A stretch of 64,000 bases of DNA, from the NCBI RefSeq assembly GCF_001767395.1, contig NZ_CP017014.1, positions 4,357,012-4,421,011 of the forward strand. Direction: 5' to 3'. A model generated the notes under the pieces. It worked only from the letters and a program-made list of their open reading frames with translations. It was not told the origin of the DNA and made no database searches. Source of the DNA: Rhodococcus sp. WMMA185 (lineage in GTDB: Bacteria; Actinomycetota; Actinomycetes; Mycobacteriales; Mycobacteriaceae). Position numbers and translations under genes: made by a program. Below are positions 1 through 8,184 of this stretch, piece by piece; the first letter of the stretch is position 1; each line of letters starts with the position of its first letter.

Positions 1-252
1 CATGTGCCACGTCAGCCGCAGTCCCCAGATCGCAACGAGCACGAAGATCAGCCACCGCCGGAGCCCATCGCCCTCGCCGAGGACGGCAGCGATGAGTGCC
101 ACCAAGACGAATCCGAGTCCCCAGGACACGTCGACGACGTTGTACCGTCTGATTCGCCTCCCGATCAGGTACGTCGCTGCTTGGAGGAGGGCGAGTACCA
201 GCAGACTCGCAAGGGATATAACGGCGAAGTTCGACCAGTCGAATCCGTTCAT
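1..252 (-). CDS. DUF1295 membrane protein, 3' part cut by the window
   Basis: The first 84 residues are visible; the rest lies beyond position 1. They begin MNGFDWSNFAVISL, then two hydrophobic stretches (about residues 9-28 and 48-62) around a charged RRIRRYNVVDVSWG segment, and a third hydrophobic stretch before LTWH. This is the usual start of DUF1295 (steroid 5-alpha-reductase-like) membrane proteins, which have several transmembrane segments and unknown substrates. The ATG overlaps the stop of the CFA-type methyltransferase by ATGA, so the two are translationally coupled. In Mycobacterium tuberculosis the gene at this place in the same gene order is Rv0446c. The family call rests on the N-terminal third plus gene order, so it is good but not certain. 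Confidence 0.75.
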   Translation of the reverse strand, partial: MNGFDWSNFAVISLASLLVLALLQAATYLIGRRIRRYNVVDVSWGLGFVLVALIAAVLGEGDGLRRWLIFVLVAIWGLRLTWHM

Positions 253-1589
253 CTGTTTGTTCCCGTTCTCTCGAGGACGAGTTGCGCGGCGTCGATGTAT
301 CCGGATCTGAACCCTGCTTCCGAGTAGCAGAGGTAGAAGTGCCACATTCGGCGGAATATCTCGTCGAACCCGAGCTCTTCTGCCCGCGAGCTGGCCGAGC
401 CGAATCGCTCCTTCCACAAACGCAGCGTCTCCGCATAGTGCCGGCCCATACTCGAGCGTTCCCGCACGCGCAGCGTCGTATGCTGCGCCGCGATGGACTC
501 GATGGCCTTGCTCGAAGGAAGGCACCCGCCCGGAAAGATGTACTTGTGCACCCAGGTGTAGGTGTTGCGGGTTTGCAGCATCCGATCGTGCGGCATCGTG
601 ATGGCTTGCAGCGCCACCTTCCCGCCAGGGGCGAGAAGTCGGTCGAGCACACTGAAGTACTTTGCCCAGTACTGATGTCCAACGGCTTCGATCATCTCCA
701 CTGACACGATCGCGTCGTACTCACCGTCGACTTCGCGATAGTCGAGAAGGTCTATCTGGACCGACTTCGAGTGGCCGGCCTCGGCAACACGCCTACGAGC
801 CAGGTGCTGCTGTTCGCGCGACAGTGTTACCGAACGGACCGTCGCGCCGCGCTGCGCCGCCCTGATGCACAGTTCTCCCCAACCGGTCCCTACCTCCAAC
901 AGGCGAGTACCGACGCCTACGCCGGCCAGGTCGAGCAGCCGATCGATCTTGTTGCGCTGGGAATCTGCGAGATCCTCCCACTTCGGCGCGCTCTGCGGGG
1001 TGGGTGCCTCCAAGACTGTGACGCCGCGTACCTCCCCGACCTGGGTGGGGGCCGAAGGGAACAGTGCACACGAGTACGTCATCGTCTCGTCGAGGAACGT
1101 CTCGAACAATTCGTTGGACAGATCGTAGTGACGGGAAATGTTCGAGCGGGCATTTCGTTCGGTATTGCGCTCTTGCTCTGGGTGTTTGGCGACATAGAGC
1201 GTGCGGAGCCGTTGCAGTGGACGCGGTATGAGCGCCGAGATCCGCGAGGCGAACACTGTCAGTACCGCTGCGAGGTCTGGTGACGTCCAGTCGCCGGCCA
1301 TGTACGACTCGCCGAAACCGATGAGCCCACTAGCCCCGACTCGTCTGGCGAACGCATCGGGGTTGCGGATGATCATGCGAGGCAGTATCTCCTTGCCGCG
1401 ACTCGCCCCCACCAGAGTGCCGTCGGGGTACTCGATTCGAACATCGAGTCCAGCCGCGGCACGTCGGAACAGTCGATCGGCGACCTTCGCCGACACGGAA
1501 GCTCGCAGGCCGGTAGGCACTTCGGCCAGCCCTGGCCAAGCTTGATTGTCGATCGGCCGGTCGAGGTCTGTTTCCTTCTTCGTTCTCAC
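249..1589 (-). CDS. ufaA1: CFA-synthase-like SAM-dependent fatty acyl methyltransferase
   Basis: Predicted cytosolic enzyme of 446 residues that transfers a methyl or methylene group from SAM to an unsaturated acyl chain of a phospholipid. The SAM-binding motif EVGTGWGE lies at about residues 232-239. The family segment with HYDLSNELF and TYSCALF lies at about 153-177, and a conserved VEMIEAVG follows near 310. The C-terminal CYSEAGFR block is also typical. I chose the GTG at 1589 because AAGGAG stands just upstream and the GTG overlaps the DUF1365 stop (GTGA); a longer reading would overlap that gene by 60 bases. It is third in the operon FAD protein - DUF1365 - this - DUF1295, matching M. 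tuberculosis ufaA1 (Rv0447c). Whether the product is cyclopropane, methyl-branched or furan fatty acid cannot be told from sequence. Confidence 0.88.
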   Translation of the reverse strand: MRTKKETDLDRPIDNQAWPGLAEVPTGLRASVSAKVADRLFRRAAAGLDVRIEYPDGTLVGASRGKEILPRMIIRNPDAFARRVGASGLIGFGESYMAGDWTSPDLAAVLTVFASRISALIPRPLQRLRTLYVAKHPEQERNTERNARSNISRHYDLSNELFETFLDETMTYSCALFPSAPTQVGEVRGVTVLEAPTPQSAPKWEDLADSQRNKIDRLLDLAGVGVGTRLLEVGTGWGELCIRAAQRGATVRSVTLSREQQHLARRRVAEAGHSKSVQIDLLDYREVDGEYDAIVSVEMIEAVGHQYWAKYFSVLDRLLAPGGKVALQAITMPHDRMLQTRNTYTWVHKYIFPGGCLPSSKAIESIAAQHTTLRVRERSSMGRHYAETLRLWKERFGSASSRAEELGFDEIFRRMWHFYLCYSEAGFRSGYIDAAQLVLERTGTNR

Positions 1590-2323
1590 TGGGCTTTCTC
1601 CTTCAAGTGACCGGGTCGAGCCATGACCGGGAGTCCGCGGGCCCACAAAGTGATTCCCTGGACGCGAATTCGAGCAGAGACTGCGAGAGGTGCAAGGGGG
1701 AAACGTAATTGAGTTCTCAGGATCGTCCGGAGGGTGACGGTCTGACGCTTCCCGCGTACCGAAGCGGTGAACGGAGCGTGACCGTCCCGGTGAAGAACCA
1801 CGGTCAGCGCGAGGGTGTCACTTGGCTCTGGCAGCCACATGTCGTACCGTCCGCTCACGTCATTGAACGGCGAGACATAGAACTGCTTGTCCGTTTGGGC
1901 CCAGGCGTTGGTATCGGGTTCGATCAGATAGCTGTGCCGTTGACCGTATGTGTTGTGTACCTCGGCGACTATGCATCGCAAGTTGCCGGCAGGGTCGTGG
2001 CACCAGTACACGCTCAGCGGATTGAAGACGTAGCCGAGAACTCGTGCGTTGAGCAGAGCCGTAACCCGGCCGCCTTCGAGGTTGATGCCGTGCGCCGTGA
2101 GGAATGCGTCGACCCTTCGCCGCAGCGTGTCCGGTCGGCTGTCGTCTCCGGGCTCGAAGTGGTCCTCAGCGAGGAAGCGTGCGAAGGGCCGCAGCCATGG
2201 AGACAATCGGGGTAGGGCGTCGAGATCGACGAACCAGTTGTAGCTCGTGTATTCGAAGCTGTTGCGGATGGGCTCGACGCGTGCGTGCCGAATTGTCGTC
2301 GCGTAGATCGCTGGGCTGGTCAC
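1586..2323 (-). CDS. DUF1365 protein
   Basis: A 245-residue protein of the DUF1365 family. The signature is the RVTALLNARVLGYVFNPLSVYW block near residues 85-110, followed by a VAEVHNTYGQRH segment and a KQFYVSPFNDVSGRY segment. The enzymatic role is not established; the family almost always sits between an FAD amine-oxidase-like protein and a CFA-type methyltransferase, so a role in making a modified membrane lipid is inferred. The start is the GTG at 2323, preceded by GGAGGAGG at ideal spacing and overlapping the stop of the upstream FAD gene (GTGA). An in-frame ATG further upstream would lie well inside the FAD gene and has no comparable ribosome site. Confidence 0.88.
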   Translation of the reverse strand: MTSPAIYATTIRHARVEPIRNSFEYTSYNWFVDLDALPRLSPWLRPFARFLAEDHFEPGDDSRPDTLRRRVDAFLTAHGINLEGGRVTALLNARVLGYVFNPLSVYWCHDPAGNLRCIVAEVHNTYGQRHSYLIEPDTNAWAQTDKQFYVSPFNDVSGRYDMWLPEPSDTLALTVVLHRDGHAPFTASVRGKRQTVTLRTILRTQLRFPLAPLAVSARIRVQGITLWARGLPVMARPGHLKEKAQ

Positions 2324-3654
2324 GATACCTCCTCCCGCTTGTGATCTTGCGCGATCGGGGTTTCCCATTCTCCGCCGATCCTCTCGGCTGCCCTCGAGCC
2401 CGATAGAGCTCCGTCCTCGTGAAACCCCCAACCTTGATATGCCCCAGCGAAAGCGACGGTATCGGTCGACAGTTCACCCATTCTGGATTGAGCAGCAACG
2501 GAATTAGGGGTATAGATGGGATGTTCATAGGTCATCTCGGCGATAACCTTGGCTGGATCGACGAGATGATCACCGCCGAGGGTGACCAGAAATCTCCTGT
2601 CTCGCACGGCATCCAGGCGCATCAAGCGTGTGATGTCGTAGGTGACAATTACTCCGGACGCATCCACGGCATCGGCCGGGGTCAGGTAGTTCCAGGATGC
2701 TCGCGCGTTCTTTGCTCGAGGCAGTAGCGATTCGTCCGTATGCAGTTGAGCACGATTCACCGTGTACGGCATACCGCCGAGCACCTCGGTCTCGAGTTTG
2801 GACGGCTTGCCGAGCATCGCGAGCGCCTGCCCTGGGTGCACTGCCACCACAGCAGCGTCGTAATAGCGGACGTCGCCTTTGCTGTCTACGATGCACGCGC
2901 CGTCGTCGTTGCGGTCCAATCGCTTCACCGACGTATCGAGAAGTATCTCGTCGATGTGTGTCGCTACCTTCTCGACATACCTGGCCGAACCGCCGGTCAC
3001 CGTTCTCCACGTGGGCGAACCGAAGACCGTCAGCATCCCGTGGTGATCGAGGAACGTGAACAGGTACCGCGCCGGGTAACGGGACGCCGAATCAGGATCG
3101 CACGACCACACTGCGGCGACCAATGGAGTCATGAAGTGTTCGACGAAGTACCGGTTGAAGCGGTTGCGGGCGAGGAAGTCGCCCAACGACTCTTGCGCGT
3201 CACGCTCGGTGGCGGGAGTGTCGAGCAGTGCGCGTGCGCGGCGGTGGAACCGGAGTATCTCACCGAGCATCCGCCAGTAACGAGGCTTCCTCAGGTTGGC
3301 TGTTGTCGGGAATAGCCCGCGAAGACCCTTCGCGCCCGCATACTCGAGTCCGTCGACGTCGGACCGAATCGACATCGACATGTCTGACTCCTGGGTGGCC
3401 ACGTCGAGCTCCGCGAACAGGCGGAGCAGCGTCGGGTAGGTGCGGTCGTTGTGCACGATGAAGCCCGTATCGACATCCACTTCGGCGCCGGAGTCGAGAG
3501 TCAGGTGATGGGTATGAGCGTGGCCGCCGAGTCGAGTGTCGGCCTCGTAGAGGGTGACACGATCACGGCGTGAGAGAACATAGGCAGCGGTCAGTCCTGC
3601 GACGCCGCTGCCGATCACGGCGACGTCTCTCCGCTGGGGGCGAGCTGTGTCCAT
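2320..3654 (-). CDS. FAD-dependent amine-oxidase-like oxidoreductase
   Basis: A 444-residue flavoprotein. The dinucleotide-binding motif GSGVAG is at residues 15-20, followed by the expected acidic end of strand 2 (LYEADTRLGGHA). The C-terminal FAD contact region GAYQGWGFHEDGALSG is near residue 410. It is the first gene of the operon and corresponds in order to M. tuberculosis Rv0449c. Substrate unknown; desaturation or oxidation of an acyl chain is an inference from its partners. The first in-frame ATG (3663) overlaps the promoter -10 box CCGAAT, so it cannot be in the mRNA. The ATG at 3654 sits about where transcription should begin, so the message is probably leaderless. Confidence 0.87.
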   Translation of the reverse strand: MDTARPQRRDVAVIGSGVAGLTAAYVLSRRDRVTLYEADTRLGGHAHTHHLTLDSGAEVDVDTGFIVHNDRTYPTLLRLFAELDVATQESDMSMSIRSDVDGLEYAGAKGLRGLFPTTANLRKPRYWRMLGEILRFHRRARALLDTPATERDAQESLGDFLARNRFNRYFVEHFMTPLVAAVWSCDPDSASRYPARYLFTFLDHHGMLTVFGSPTWRTVTGGSARYVEKVATHIDEILLDTSVKRLDRNDDGACIVDSKGDVRYYDAAVVAVHPGQALAMLGKPSKLETEVLGGMPYTVNRAQLHTDESLLPRAKNARASWNYLTPADAVDASGVIVTYDITRLMRLDAVRDRRFLVTLGGDHLVDPAKVIAEMTYEHPIYTPNSVAAQSRMGELSTDTVAFAGAYQGWGFHEDGALSGSRAAERIGGEWETPIAQDHKREEVS

Positions 3655-3661
3655 ATCAATC

Positions 3662-3688
3662 ATTCGGAGCTGGGGATGTGTCGGATGG
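3662..3688 (-). promoter_or_regulatory. SigK-type ECF promoter of the FAD/CFA operon
   Basis: Read on the minus strand: CCATCC (3688-3683), 15 bases, CCGAAT (3667-3662). From memory, the M. tuberculosis SigK consensus uses these same two boxes with a similar spacer. The start codon at 3654 is 8 nt after the -10 box, consistent with a leaderless transcript. The same architecture recurs at 4535-4561 and 4586-4612. Confidence 0.75.
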
Positions 3689-3744
3689 CCGAGGGGTGCG
3701 TCGGATGCTGGAGCCGGGGAAGGAATGTGGTGCTCATGTAGAAA

Positions 3745-3779
3745 CCCGGCGGTATCGCGCTGAGACCGATACCGCCGGG
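3745..3779 (-). terminator. Hairpin terminator of the fasciclin gene
   Basis: Perfect 13-bp inverted repeat CCCGGCGGTATCG / CGATACCGCCGGG with a 9-nt loop, followed on the minus strand by TTTC. It lies 54 bp after the fasciclin stop codon and before the next operon's promoter, so it separates the two units. Confidence 0.75.
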
Positions 3780-3833
3780 CGTACTACCGAGATCCGAGTA
3801 CCTGCTCGTGCAAGTACTTACTCGGGCATCTAC

Positions 3834-4487
3834 TTACTGGGGCATCAAGACGGTGTCCACGAGGTACACCGTGGCGTTGGCGGTCTGGATGCCGCCGCAG
3901 ATGACGCCCGCGTCGTTGACCATCAGGTTGTCACCCGAACCCGTGACGGTGACCGTGCCACCTTCGACGGTGGCGTGCTCGCCGACGATGTCACTCGGTG
4001 GGATCTGGCCGGGGACTACGTGATAGGTCAGGATCTGGGTGAGCAGCGCAGAATCGGTCGACAGAGTGTCGATCGTCGCCGGGTCGAGCTTGGCGAATGC
4101 GTCATCCACGGGGGCGAAGACCGTGAACTCCGATCCGTTGAGAGTGTCGACGAGGTTGACATCCGGGTTCAGCTGCCCGGAAACCGCTGCCGCGAGAGTG
4201 GTGAGTACGGGGCTGTTGGAAGCCGCGGTGGCGACGGGTTCGACCGCCATCGCATCGATCGAGCCGGGGCCGTCAGGCACCGACGCCGCGTAGTCCGCGC
4301 AACCCGGTCCGACCAGGTTCGCAGCCGGATCCGCGGTGGCAGGTGTCGTTGTCGCCTCAGCTGTCGTGGTCTCGGCTGCCGTCGTCGTGTTGTTCGCGGA
4401 GCCGTTGTCATCCGAGGAGCACGCTGCGCCCATCAGTGCCAGGGATGCGGTTGCTGCGACTGCCAGAACTCGGGTGGTGACCTTCAT
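3834..4487 (-). CDS. Fasciclin (FAS1) domain lipoprotein, MPT83/MPT70-like
   Basis: A 217-residue exported protein. Residues 1-23 form a signal peptide ending LALMGAAC, with Cys22 as the probable lipidation site although the lipobox is not textbook. A Thr/Ala-rich linker (about 24-58) leads to one FAS1 domain (about 80-217) with the conserved [14 protein letters not shown] and LTYHVVPGQ motifs and the late LVDTVLMPQ strand. It is close in plan to the mycobacterial MPT83/MPT70 antigens, whose genes belong to the SigK regulon. The start at 4487 follows GAGAGG and is the only one that gives a signal peptide. A SigK-type promoter lies 48-74 nt upstream. Function in adhesion or envelope organisation is inferred from the family. 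Confidence 0.9.
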
Positions 4488-4534
4488 TGTTTTGCCTCTC
4501 GCTGATGTGTGTGGATAAGTACCGTGCGACAGGA

Positions 4535-4561
4535 GTTCGGAGCGGTATCCGAATCGGATGG
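4535..4561 (-). promoter_or_regulatory. SigK-type ECF promoter of the fasciclin gene
   Basis: Minus strand: CCATCC (4561-4556), 15 bases, CCGAAC (4540-4535), one base off the CCGAAT box of the neighbouring operon. The -35 box lies in one arm of a perfect 14-bp inverted repeat (4550-4563 and 4584-4597) whose other arm holds the -35 box of the divergent lipocalin promoter. Confidence 0.7.
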
Positions 4562-4585
4562 GTGGATTTTTTCGACTTCTGCTAC

Positions 4586-4612
4586 CCATCCGATTCGCGA
4601 GGGGTTTCGAAT
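4586..4612 (+). promoter_or_regulatory. SigK-type ECF promoter of the lipocalin gene
   Basis: Plus strand: CCATCC (4586-4591), 15 bases, TCGAAT (4607-4612). It is the mirror image of the fasciclin promoter, so the two -35 boxes stand back to back about 24 bp apart. The leader before the lipocalin start would be about 75 nt. Confidence 0.65.
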
Positions 4613-4694
4613 GACTCTCGAGAGAGTCCCGTGGGGTGACTCGCTCTACGCTGCTTGCTTCTTATCGACTGCATGATTGTTGAAAGGACTCGAG

Positions 4695-5318
4695 ATGACC
4701 CGCCCTATGGTTCGTGGATTCATAACCGGAATGCTGGCCTCAGCTCTCGCTCTGGTGCTGTCCGCGGGCCCTGCACAGGCTCAGCCGCCAGGGCCGGAAG
4801 ACATACCGGGCGCGCTGGAACCGGTTCCTTCTCTTGATATTCAGAGATACCTCGGCACGTGGTATCAGTTGGCTGCCGTACCCCAGCCGTTCAACCTGAA
4901 CTGCGCGCGGGACACTTCGGCGACGTACGGATATGTCGATTCATCGAACATCAGCGTCGCCAACAGGTGCACGACCTGGACGGGAGGAACGAGCGGCGTC
5001 AACGGGAATGCGCGCGTCAACGATCCGGCCACCAACGCCCAACTGCACGTGAGCTTTACCGATGTGCCCTTCCAAGGTTCGCCGGACGGCCCCACCAACT
5101 ACGTGGTCACCTACATCGCCGATGACTACTCATGGGCGCTGGTCGGTGATCCGGCACGTTCGTCGGGATTCGTCCTCTCTCGTACGCCGGCGGTCGACGA
5201 TGCGGGGTGGACGCAGATCCGGCAGGTGGTGGAGTGGCGTGGCTACAACTCGTGCTTGTTGCTGACATCCCCGACCACCGGTGGACGAGAGGACATTGTG
5301 CCGCTGTGCACCGTCTGA
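4695..5318 (+). CDS. Secreted lipocalin (Blc-like)
   Basis: A 207-residue protein with a signal peptide of about 29 residues (hydrophobic core at 10-24, AQA cleavage motif). The lipocalin fold signature GTWYQLA is at residues 54-60. Conserved strands include YVVTYIADDYSWALVGDP and a SGFVLSRTP block, as in Blc/apolipoprotein D proteins that bind small hydrophobic ligands. Four cysteines in the mature part could form disulfides. There is no lipobox, so it is probably free or loosely wall-associated. The ATG at 4695 follows GAAAGGA; a TTG further upstream is less likely. The SigK-type promoter suggests it works with the modified lipids or envelope proteins of the neighbouring units. Its last 76 bases overlap the end of the opposite-strand SDR gene. 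Confidence 0.85.
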   Translation: MTRPMVRGFITGMLASALALVLSAGPAQAQPPGPEDIPGALEPVPSLDIQRYLGTWYQLAAVPQPFNLNCARDTSATYGYVDSSNISVANRCTTWTGGTSGVNGNARVNDPATNAQLHVSFTDVPFQGSPDGPTNYVVTYIADDYSWALVGDPARSSGFVLSRTPAVDDAGWTQIRQVVEWRGYNSCLLLTSPTTGGREDIVPLCTV

Positions 5319-6784
5319 CGGGCCGCGCAGCCGGTGATGTTCTCCAACATTCCTTTGAAGATGATTCCGTGGAACGGCAGGATGGAATACCAATAAATGC
5401 GTCCAGCTAGACCTTTGGGGAAGAATATCGCGCGTTGATCGAGGCGCGAGCGACCCGCACCAACCGCATGCACGCGCCATTCGAGCCACGCCGCGCCCGG
5501 TAGCCGCATCTCAGCGCGCAGGCGCAGCAAGGTTCCTCGGTCGATGCGCTCTACACGCCAAAAGTCCAACGGGTCACCGGTGTTGAGCTGCTTCTGGTTT
5601 CGGCGTCCTCGGGCAAGTCCGACACCCCCGACAACTCGATCCAGCCAGCCGCGAATGGACCATGCGAGAGGGGAGGAGTACCAACCGTTCTCGCCGCCGA
5701 TACTCTCGACCACACTCCATAGCGTTGCGGCGTCGGCGTCACACTCCTTCGTGTGTTCGTCGGTGTAGACGACTTCGCCGGCCCAGTGGGGGTCCGATGG
5801 AAGGGGCTGCGAGGGTGCGTCCACCGGAGATGCCCCGGCCCATGAGGTCTCCACATCACCGTTGTCCGTTCGCCACAGCGCCAATCGCACGGCTTCCCGA
5901 TACGCCGTCAGCCCCTCTTTCGGAGGCGGGATGATTTCGTCGATGTCGTGCTCCGAGGCAACGGCATCGTCGCGCAGTGATTCGATCAACGCTCGGCCGA
6001 GCGACGGGGGAATAGGGGTTACGAGTCCGATCCACAAGCCTGCAAGTTTCGGTGTCAGGACGGGTAGGACGAGAATGCGACGGCGCCCGAGACCGGCGAT
6101 CTCCGCGTAGATCTGCATCATCTCGCCGTACCTGATGACGTCGGGACCGCCGATGTCATAGGTGCGGCTACGCGGAAGTGGAGCCTCCGCCGCCTCCACG
6201 AGATAGTGCAGCACGTCTCGAACTGCGATCGGCTGGATCTTGTTGTTCACCCAACGCGGGGTGGTCATCACCGGCAATCGGTTGGTCAGATGCCGAATCA
6301 TCTCGAAGGACGCCGAGCCTGCTCCGATGACGACACCGGCCTGCAGAACCATTGTGGGAATACCGGATTCGATGAGGATCTGGCCGACTCGCGTTCGAGA
6401 ACGCAGGTGCGGGGAAAGATCTGCCGAGTCGGGATGCAGCCCGCTGAGGTAGACGATGCGGCTCACGCCACAATTTCGGGCTGCCTCCACGACGTTCTCC
6501 GCGCCGATACGTTCGGCCTCCTCGAATTCCTCCGCGCCGCCCATCGAATGTACGAGGTAGTAGACGACATCGACGTCTGTGAATGCGGCAGCGAGCGATG
6601 CGGGATCGCTCAGGTCACCGCGGGCTATCTCGACTTCGGAGGCCCAGGGAACGTCCGTCAGTTTGTCGGGCGAGCGTGCCAGCACGCGCACCTGGTAGCC
6701 GACTTCAACGAGCCGGGGGGCGAGGCGTCCGCCGATGTACCCGGTAGAACCCGTGACCAGCGCGCGTAGCTGCGCCATGTCCAC
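5243..6784 (-). CDS. SDR-type NAD(P)-binding protein with DUF2867 C-terminus
   Basis: A 513-residue two-part protein. The N-terminal half is an atypical SDR/NmrA-like Rossmann fold with TGSTGYIGG at residues 11-19 and YYLVHSMGG near 75, and it lacks an obvious YxxxK pair. The C-terminal part (about 330-490) looks like DUF2867, a START-like fold, with the DPLDFWRV and LRAEMRLPGAAWLEW strands and the closing YSILPFHGIIF segment. Its substrate is unknown. The GTG at 6784 is 6-7 nt after GGAGG and is preferred over the ATG two codons later. It is divergent from the TIGR01777 gene, a protein of related two-domain plan in the opposite order. The last 25 codons run antisense through the end of the lipocalin gene. 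Confidence 0.82.
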   Translation of the reverse strand: MDMAQLRALVTGSTGYIGGRLAPRLVEVGYQVRVLARSPDKLTDVPWASEVEIARGDLSDPASLAAAFTDVDVVYYLVHSMGGAEEFEEAERIGAENVVEAARNCGVSRIVYLSGLHPDSADLSPHLRSRTRVGQILIESGIPTMVLQAGVVIGAGSASFEMIRHLTNRLPVMTTPRWVNNKIQPIAVRDVLHYLVEAAEAPLPRSRTYDIGGPDVIRYGEMMQIYAEIAGLGRRRILVLPVLTPKLAGLWIGLVTPIPPSLGRALIESLRDDAVASEHDIDEIIPPPKEGLTAYREAVRLALWRTDNGDVETSWAGASPVDAPSQPLPSDPHWAGEVVYTDEHTKECDADAATLWSVVESIGGENGWYSSPLAWSIRGWLDRVVGGVGLARGRRNQKQLNTGDPLDFWRVERIDRGTLLRLRAEMRLPGAAWLEWRVHAVGAGRSRLDQRAIFFPKGLAGRIYWYSILPFHGIIFKGMLENITGCAARQTVHSGTMSSRPPVVGDVSNKHEL

Positions 6785-6837
6785 ACGTTACCTCCATTTG
6801 CCCGTGTTTCGGTTTGGTTCGCAGCTAGGGTCGGGGG

Positions 6838-8184
6838 ATGGGCATCGTGTACTCGAGTGTCATCGAAGCCCCACGGGACGAGTTGTTCGCCTGGCATACG
6901 AGGCCGGGGGCCTTCACCCGACTGTCACCGCCGTGGCAACCACTGACGTTGGCCAGGGAGTCCGATTCCTTGAAGTCGGGGAAGGCGGAACTACGGCTGC
7001 CCGGCGGTCTGCCATGGGTCGCACAACACGATCGGGACGAGTACGACCCGCCGCACCGGTTCGTCGACTACTCCTCGGCATTGCCGATGAGATTGCTCGT
7101 ACCGTGGCGGCATACACACACGTTCGACGCCCTGTCGGAGGGTTCGACCCGGGTAACCGATCATGTCGACACCCTTGTGCCGGCCAGGTTCCTTCGGTCG
7201 ACATTCGTCTACCGCCACCGCCAACTCGCGGACGACATCGCCCGGCACCAGTGGGCGTCCACGCTCCTGCCGGAGCCCCTCACGATCGCGGTGACGGGCA
7301 GTTCGGGTCTCGTCGGTTCGGCGCTGACCGCGTTCCTGAGCACGGGCGGGCACCGAGTGGTGCGCCTCGTGCGCCACTCCCCAGGTTCTCCTGACGAACG
7401 GCTATGGAACCCGTTCGACCCCGCCGGCGACCTTCTCGACGGGGTCGATGCGGTAATCCACCTTGCCGGTGCATCCATCGCGGGAAGGTTCACCGACACC
7501 CACCGTCGGGCGATCAGGGGCAGTCGCATCGAGCCAACGCGACGCCTGGCCGAGGCGGCTGCCGAGGGTGGGGCGAAGGTATTCGTCAGTGCTTCGGCGA
7601 TCGGGTACTACGGCCCACAGCGTGGTGATGCGATTCTCGACGAGCGCAGTGAGCGCGGTGACGGGTTCCTTGCCGACGTCGTGGCGGAGTGGGAAGAAGC
7701 ATCAAAGGTTGCCGCCGAGGCGGGGTTGCGGGTGGTGAATGTTCGAACCGGGATCGTGCAGTCGCCGAAGGGTGGTGTGCTGCGACTACAGAGGCCCCTC
7801 TTCGAGGCCGGTCTCGGCGGCCGGTTGGGGACGGGAACGCAGTGGTTGTCATGGATCGACATCGACGACCTCGTGGACGTGTACCACCGCGCCCTGGTCG
7901 ACTCGGAGTTGCGGGGAGCGGTCAACGCGGTGGCACCCAATCCCGTCCGCAACGAGGAATACACCGCCGTGCTCGCCTCTGTGCTCCGCCGCCCGGCATT
8001 TGTACCGGTACCCGATTTCGGGCCGAAGCTACTGCTCGGCGAGCAGGGCGCGCGTGAACTCGCCCTGGCCGATCAGCGGGTTACTCCGGGGCGCCTCCTC
8101 GAACGGGACCACTGCTTCCGGCGGCCCGACCTCGGCACGGCGCTGCGCCATCAGCTGGGGCGCTTCAAGACGGACGTGGGGTAG
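6838..8184 (+). CDS. TIGR01777 family epimerase with N-terminal START-like domain
   Basis: A 448-residue protein. Residues 1-140 look like an SRPBCC/START-like domain (VYSSVIEAPRDELFAWH). Residues 148-445 form an SDR epimerase-like domain with TGSSGLVGS at 153-161, IHLAGASIAGRF and SASAIGYYG, as in YfcH/TIGR01777 proteins. The small C-terminal DUF1731-like part follows (NEEYTAVLASVLRRPAFVPVP). The reaction is not established for the family. The ATG is the only start near the divergent gene, 53 bp away, so the two genes probably share a bidirectional promoter. The 3' end overlaps the MmcQ/YjbR gene on the opposite strand by 20 bp. Confidence 0.87.
   Translation: MGIVYSSVIEAPRDELFAWHTRPGAFTRLSPPWQPLTLARESDSLKSGKAELRLPGGLPWVAQHDRDEYDPPHRFVDYSSALPMRLLVPWRHTHTFDALSEGSTRVTDHVDTLVPARFLRSTFVYRHRQLADDIARHQWASTLLPEPLTIAVTGSSGLVGSALTAFLSTGGHRVVRLVRHSPGSPDERLWNPFDPAGDLLDGVDAVIHLAGASIAGRFTDTHRRAIRGSRIEPTRRLAEAAAEGGAKVFVSASAIGYYGPQRGDAILDERSERGDGFLADVVAEWEEASKVAAEAGLRVVNVRTGIVQSPKGGVLRLQRPLFEAGLGGRLGTGTQWLSWIDIDDLVDVYHRALVDSELRGAVNAVAPNPVRNEEYTAVLASVLRRPAFVPVPDFGPKLLLGEQGARELALADQRVTPGRLLERDHCFRRPDLGTALRHQLGRFKTDVG

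Follow-up and report, generated by a model that had tools for sequence, protein, structure and literature searches.

A predicted SigK-RskA regulon with three matching promoters in Rhodococcus sp. WMMA185, and its possible role in defence against membrane lipid oxidation

Introduction

What does the ECF sigma factor SigK respond to, and what purpose do the lipid genes in its operon serve? In mycobacteria, major antigens are under its control, but its trigger is obscure, and excerpts of a study of M. kansasii in light state that its environmental stimuli "remain obscure" (PMC9861118). SigK control of the operon treated here and of mpt83-type genes has already been published, as has conservation of the site beyond mycobacteria (PMC7509140). 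In M. tuberculosis, SigK is autoregulated through the operon promoter (PMC7509140) and SigK-dependent promoters are reported for mpt83, mpt70 and dipZ (PMC9861118), and a mpt83-sigK-rskA cassette with a SigK site is conserved even in Yersinia (Veyrier 2008, cited in PMC7509140). No role for the SigK lipid operon was found in the literature searched, as far as excerpts of the papers go. The searches, which left subscription journals largely outside, also turned up no paper that ties SigK to the Ufa genes discussed below and none that describes a lipocalin as a recurrent SigK target.

We analysed a stretch of 64,000 nucleotides (64 kb) from Rhodococcus sp. WMMA185, called the window throughout, in which the operon can be matched by gene family and order to a Rhodobacter pathway of known chemistry whose partners are under a singlet-oxygen sigma factor. 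This match makes the question directly testable in rhodococci: does SigK respond to membrane-lipid oxidation, and does a furan or methyl-diene fatty acid arise from these genes?

Results and discussion

Three promoter-like boxes lie at the positions and in the directions given in the earlier note. The first (3662..3688, minus strand; -35 CCATCC at 3688-3683, spacer of 15, -10 CCGAAT at 3667-3662) precedes an operon of FAD, DUF1365, CFA, DUF1295, sigK and rskA genes, the second (4535..4561, minus strand; -35 CCATCC at 4561-4556, spacer of 15, -10 CCGAAC at 4540-4535) a fasciclin gene and the third (4586..4612, plus strand; -35 CCATCC at 4586-4591, spacer of 15, -10 TCGAAT at 4607-4612) a lipocalin gene, each being oriented into its own gene. 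That these are SigK-type promoters of an ECF regulon, as the earlier note had proposed, is supported by the end of the same operon, which holds sigK, whose product passes the SigK model, and rskA. The antigen-type gene that the note had placed beside the lipid operon is indeed there, an MPT70-type fasciclin gene directly upstream of it. Read from its sequence, the locus would thus encode a small autoregulated SigK-RskA regulon with three CCATCC-N15-YCGAAY promoters, to which we give a probability of roughly 85%. RskA would keep SigK at the membrane, and released SigK would start transcription at the three promoters, yielding first a leaderless FAD-DUF1365-CFA-DUF1295-sigK-rskA mRNA, that is, positive autoregulation together with its own brake, second the fasciclin protein and third, divergently, the lipocalin. 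The first three operon genes may then make methylated, perhaps furan, fatty acids, with fasciclin and lipocalin acting outside the membrane.

All six operon genes lie on the minus strand, in an order (FAD, DUF1365, CFA, DUF1295, sigK, rskA) that we take to be that of Rv0449c-Rv0444c in M. tuberculosis, the FAD gene presumably corresponding to Rv0449c. This gene (2320..3654) encodes a FAD-dependent oxidoreductase of the amine-oxidase type (PF01593, PF13450) that matches UfaD/RSP_1091 by its place in the trio. It is followed by a DUF1365 gene (1586..2431 as ORF bounds; PF07103, E 4e-68) of the family of UfaO/RSP_1090 and by a gene for a SAM methyltransferase of the CMAS/CFA type (249..1646), a candidate UfaM by family and gene order. 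The window holds the 5' part of the DUF1295 gene (1..252), which runs off to L025:6464; L025 is the window's own locus, and adding 4349999 to its positions gives those on the genome contig, G000:C1. Outside the window, sigK (L025:5790 to about 6386) follows DUF1295, and rskA (L025:5012-5797) is the last gene of the operon. The locus resembles the M. tuberculosis SigK-RskA regulon in its SigK and RskA orthologues, its MPT70-type fasciclin target and its operon order, and departs from it in having the fasciclin gene immediately ahead of the operon and, in addition, a lipocalin gene with its own SigK box in divergent orientation. The mpt83-sigK-rskA cassette, which excerpts describe in Rhodococcus and other actinobacteria as well as in Yersinia, likewise has fasciclin and sigK-rskA genes with a conserved SigK site; in the window's locus, fasciclin and sigK are separated by the lipid operon, and the lipocalin gene is again an addition. 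In four R. opacus-type loci (L053-L056), the operon opens with an additional gene of ~215 codons, which Pfam identifies in L053 as an alpha/beta hydrolase, and contains a further CMAS methyltransferase match; neither is found in the window's operon.

What the first three genes make can be approached through R. sphaeroides, in which UfaM, UfaD and UfaO, the last carrying a DUF1365 domain, suffice for production of a methylated furan fatty acid (PMC7380195). A FAD amine-oxidase-like gene, a DUF1365 gene and a CMAS methyltransferase gene are present together in the window's operon, and FAD-DUF1365-CFA match ufaD-ufaO-ufaM by family and gene order. The RpoE regulon of R. sphaeroides comprises RSP_1091, RSP_1090, cfaS (RSP_2144 = UfaM) and the fasciclin gene RSP_1409 (PMC7074977, Table 1), and full activation of RpoE requires RSP_1090/91 and CfaS (PMC7074977). 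At the level of families and gene order, the window shares with the RpoE-ChrR regulon UfaD, UfaO, cfaS/UfaM and fasciclin (PMC7074977, PMC7380195). The likeness is confined to these effector genes, however, as the window's ECF type differs and its anti-sigma factor is RskA and not of the ChrR type, whereas R. sphaeroides ChrR has a cupin domain; a lipocalin is also not named among the members of that regulon in excerpts of the two papers (PMC7074977, PMC7380195). R. capsulatus RpoE is reported to be nearer SigK (34%) than R. sphaeroides RpoE (24%) (PMC7074977).

The same effector genes recur in Pseudomonadota, where we sampled 21 DUF1365 loci of 39 matches. All 21 have an adjoining FAD gene and a CFA match, and FAD-DUF1365-CFA follow one another in the same order on the same strand in 19; the exceptions are L236, with a divergent CFA gene, and L237, with a weak and divergent CFA match. 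An ECF sigma gene was present in 8 of the 21, DUF1295 in 5, lipocalin in 3 and fasciclin in 2, and 8 loci contain a pair of rpoE- and chrR-like genes. Most complete is L227, with sigma, ChrR, lipocalin, a second CMAS, DUF1295, CFA, DUF1365, FAD and fasciclin genes in one stretch, its ChrR scoring 180 bits against a cut-off of 124.5 for TIGR02451 and its sigma factor being nearest R. sphaeroides RpoE. Together, L227 and the other Pseudomonadota loci place the same effector set under two different switches in two phyla, and it is from this that we infer a service of SigK in membrane oxidation defence. It is thus appealing to regard protection or repair of oxidised membrane lipid as the likeliest function of the SigK regulon, at about even odds and with less confidence than the regulon itself. 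A more detailed scenario, tentative and slightly short of an even chance, is that one portable set of UfaD-UfaO-UfaM, DUF1295, fasciclin and lipocalin genes answers to two different ECF switches, to SigK-RskA in Actinomycetota and to RpoE-ChrR in Pseudomonadota, and that the SigK regulon is a defence against singlet oxygen or lipid oxidation by way of protective furan-type fatty acids, with the lipocalin carrying or clearing oxidised lipid.

Several reports touch on such a stimulus. Singlet oxygen induces CFA1, CFA2, a DUF1365 gene and a fasciclin-like gene in Chlamydomonas, and this induction is attenuated in sak1 (PMC4067076). In M. kansasii, the fasciclins mpk83 and mpk70 go up in light along with a photolyase locus, but the sigK operon is absent from the induced loci named in the excerpted passage, and dipZ was unresponsive (PMC9861118). 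UV lowers RskA in a soil actinobacterium (PMC8965627), and nitric oxide enriches the SigK regulon in M. tuberculosis with sigK itself unchanged (PMC11439070). The light, UV and nitric oxide papers leave the odds of an oxidation function where they were, the light study being partly against it since the sigK operon is unlisted.

It is possible, with a chance below even, that the SigK regulon is as described and that its lipid operon makes a tuberculostearic-like branched or a cyclopropane acid for envelope remodelling, unrelated to oxidised lipids. The methyltransferase does belong to the CMAS family, and the regulation is indifferent to the product. Actinobacteria of this group contain 10-methyl branched acids, and UfaA1/Rv0447c has been linked to tuberculostearic acid. 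However, the window's methyltransferase falls short of the NCBIfam cut-offs both for canonical Cfa (234 of 400 bits) and for mycolic cyclopropane synthases (143 of 390), it is accompanied by DUF1365, the oxygen-inserting UfaO family, in 40 of 40 actinobacterial loci, and the conserved order on one strand in Pseudomonadota argues in the same direction. The methyltransferase could still have another methylated acid as its product.

The second question is which sigma factor reads the boxes. The one encoded in the operon is of the SigK (ECF19) kind: it passes the NCBIfam SigK model NF007228 with 296 bits against a cut-off of 226, its nearest solved structure is M. tuberculosis SigK (4nqw, E 1e-60; the next is 2q1z, E 3e-18), and both residues of the redox-switch cysteine pair of M. 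tuberculosis SigK, C133 and C183, whose roles are described in PMC7509140, are aligned with cysteines. The anti-sigma factor has both RskA domains (PF22618 at 69 bits, PF10099 at 87 bits) and matches 4nqw_B at E 1.5e-12. A second SigK-like sigma factor was not found in this genome at E 1e-5, the next best being 28% identical. It would be conceivable that the boxes, though genuine ECF promoters, serve a different ECF sigma factor and that SigK is a bystander, as the genome has fifteen further Sigma70_r2 matches, of which two, with identical scores, are probably contig-end copies. This is very unlikely. The boxed operon has sigK as its penultimate gene, the box is also found ahead of fasciclin-sigK or of sigK itself where the stretch has no lipid operon (for example, L165, L166, L168, L171 and L176), and recognition of the M. 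tuberculosis mpt70 promoter by orthologues of SigK has been reported (PMC7509140). SigK would accordingly be the factor that recognises the three boxes. The first and last 16 kb (L246, L247) of the 4.44-Mb contig G000:C1 repeat each other in the same orientation, with 75 of 90 sampled 60-mers from the first 18 kb found at the end at a drifting offset, which is probably an untrimmed overlap of a circular chromosome. Four genomes of the R. opacus/jostii type contain a second SigK-like sigma factor that is 62-63% identical to the window's, and in the one such stretch read, from R. jostii (L171), an N15 box lies 28 nt before a possible ATG of the gene for this sigma factor.

How widely the box is kept was assessed upstream of FAD genes, in the 750 bp before the gene at 40 loci from 39 genomes (of 80 matches) drawn across the family. 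A strict N15 box precedes 15 of the 40, and a relaxed one (NCGAAN) 20, against no strict or relaxed N15 box downstream of the FAD starts in 358,400 strand-bases (both strands of 179,200 bp). This downstream DNA is largely coding and stands in only imperfectly for intergenic sequence, and the spacer control matters for that reason: with spacers of 10-21, N15 gave 15 matches, N16 one and the others none upstream of FAD. The relaxed box occurs in 10 of 14 FAD loci with sigK downstream and in 10 of 26 without, and is thus also kept where sigK is not downstream in the FAD stretch read. Of the 20 loci that do not have even a relaxed N15 box, 4 have sigK downstream, among them L220 with a near match at a spacer of 16. 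SigK itself was followed through a search for SigK-like sigma factors given 48 of 58 actinobacterial lipocalin loci (47 genomes; a match in 45), and 20 sigK stretches were chosen for spread from genomes of named loci. A fasciclin gene and sigK-rskA with a SigK box are also found in R. erythropolis (L166) and R. globerulus (L168). Adding GCT ahead of CCGAAT gives an extended motif with 40 occurrences, spread over 22 of 28 same-genus genomes, and none for its reversed control; in the window's genome the extended motif fits the FAD promoter only, one of the three sites. The earlier note had also held that promoter and target genes are conserved outside mycobacteria, and this stands insofar as the box precedes the same genes in other genera, but the outline was already in print. 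We assume, as the note has it, that M. tuberculosis SigK uses boxes of the same letters before Rv0449c-Rv0444c and mpt83/mpt70. These letters were not found in the excerpts of PMC7509140, where CCATCC appears once, within a primer. In Gordonia malaquae (L167:7648-7674), a box lies 7 nt before the start of a DipZ-like membrane protein with DsbD_TM and thioredoxin-like domains, divergent from the fasciclin gene.

The position of the box bears on where transcription would begin. Taken naively, the FAD ORF starts at ATG 3663, which falls within the -10 box, and the gene likely starts at ATG 3654 instead, 7 nt past the box. The same spacing is found at 15 of the 20 FAD loci with a strict or relaxed box, where an ORF of 120 codons or more begins exactly 7 nt past the -10; in 4 of these 15 (L185, L195, L199, L205) this ORF is another gene ahead of FAD. 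Besides the window, L053-L056, Gordonia malaquae and L170 display it as well. Given this spacing, transcription would begin on the A of the start codon, and the operon mRNA is probably leaderless, with its predicted start at the A of ATG 3654. If the spacing of the FAD loci applies to the other two promoters, the fasciclin transcript is predicted to start near 4527, with a leader of ~40 nt, and the lipocalin transcript near 4620, with a leader of ~75 nt.

The fasciclin gene (3834..4487, minus strand; PF02469) encodes a protein of the MPT70/MPT83 type with MPT70 itself (1nyo, E 2e-61) as its closest PDB match and, by eye, a lipoprotein-like N-terminus; no paralogue was found in this genome at E 1e-5. 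The lipocalin gene (4695..5318, plus strand; PF08212 at E 2e-42, 8wb2 at E 4e-20, Blc entries) is of the bacterial Blc and plant temperature-induced lipocalin type, and its product looks exported, again by eye. Between the two genes lies a perfect 14-bp inverted repeat (4550..4597; arms 4550-4563 and 4584-4597, loop of 20) that spans the two opposed -35 regions, and one might ask if the divergent boxes are not two promoters but together form a palindromic operator at which a repressor or activator binds. In four close relatives, however, the symmetry has shrunk to the CCATCC core and a few neighbouring bases, mostly on the box's other side, and both -10 boxes are kept, which makes a separate operator improbable, and the FAD promoter has the same box without an opposed partner. 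The operator reading is hardly credible on these grounds, and we treat the divergent boxes as two predicted promoters. Beside the lipocalin gene, positions 5243-8184 of the window encode a DUF2867/NmrA protein and a TIGR01777 protein, neither with a box of its own in the window; at least one of the two is found again in 14 of the 40 family stretches around FAD genes.

The box of the lipocalin gene was sought elsewhere in a scan of L025 and 58 of 80 loci, with 22 non-actinobacterial ones left out. In a count over 69 lipocalin loci, 10 have an N15 box no more than 350 bp ahead of the gene (9 of 68 besides the window's), against one match in 334,384 strand-bases downstream; an N16 box in L057, found in the scan, stands outside these counts. 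Five of the ten boxed loci (L025, L053-L056) share the window's arrangement, in L209 the boxed lipocalin gene is divergent from the FAD operon, and in L059, L066, L068 and L098 no sigK or FAD gene was found within 8 kb. Two genomes of the same genus (G001, G002) carry the boxed lipocalin gene 13-15 kb from the boxed lipid operon, a distance at which it is not wholly unlinked. Ten of the 40 family loci have lipocalin and FAD genes together in one 11-kb stretch, and in L212 and L213 the lipocalin gene is placed within the operon, between DUF1295 and sigK. Since 59 of the 69 lipocalin loci have no box, the link between SigK and lipocalin is recurrent and not universal. Among distant bacteria, the lipocalin-scan loci L111-L132 gave no FAD, DUF1365 or CFA match at E 1e-8, and the association of lipocalin with the trio emerged there only from the search based on DUF1365.

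How specific the motif is remains to be considered, the earlier note having conceded that its proposal would fall if the motif were as frequent at random sites. The window has exactly three matches to CCATCC-N14..17-YCGAAY, all N15 and all inside 951 bp; 0.34 were expected, and at least three were reached in none of 100 shuffles. The whole genome has 24, that is, 21 besides those in the window, and the expectation is also ~24, an extrapolation obtained by scaling up the shuffle rate of the window (0.34 x 69.4 = 23.6), the only sequence shuffled. Seventeen of the 21 others fall within ORFs that have 80 codons or more and a GC3 above 0.72, a crude criterion under which the fasciclin promoter (L023) is also flagged, since an in-frame ATG precedes the true start of the fasciclin gene. 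Being at chance frequency, the bare pattern is thus unspecific and no evidence by itself, and to this extent the concession was warranted; the three sites are nevertheless separated from it by a matrix from other genera. Trained on 17 such sites, this matrix scores them at 25.1, 24.2 and 19.6, with 12.7 as the next best in the window and 15.3 as the best place in 21 three-kb loci around the other exact genome matches. A matrix from 44 sites outside the genome, including fasciclin promoters of close relatives, gives 34.1, 33.8 and 28.9, with 4.5 for the next best place in the window. The training sites were picked by consensus, so that the hexamer positions are saturated by construction and new discrimination lies in the flanking bases, with C preceding and G following CCATCC and with GCT preceding CCGAAT. 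What makes the three sites convincing is their cluster beside sigK, their orientation, the fixed spacer, the extended motif and conservation. That they are chance matches to a loose 12-base consensus is a negligible prospect, for all that the genome count equals the extrapolated expectation, as three oriented N15 sites within 951 bp are conserved across genera.

Could the regulon be wider? All 21 other exact matches were inspected, and those with a spacer of 15 were scored with the 44-site matrix. The highest-scoring (L009, 20.5) overlaps a long ORF, presumably a NAD kinase by its look, in antisense at the 3' end, and was rejected. L002, which scores 11.8 and has an ATG 23 nt past the box that opens 142 codons, lies outside the GC3-rich ORFs, as do L006 and L013, both N16 matches. 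The three sites in the window are the only convincing SigK promoters found in this genome. In relatives, a membrane molybdopterin oxidoreductase (PF00174) is preceded by a CCATCC-N16-CCGAAT site, seen in four same-genus loci (L277-L280) and present in 10 of 28 same-genus genomes, and L250 and L263 have N15 sites. The window's genome has the gene (G000:C1:2585119-2586684, L281; 81% identical), but its promoter, which keeps the -10 GGCTCCGAAT, has an unrecognisable -35, and we did not count it as a fourth target. Perhaps it is a SigK target that has decayed.
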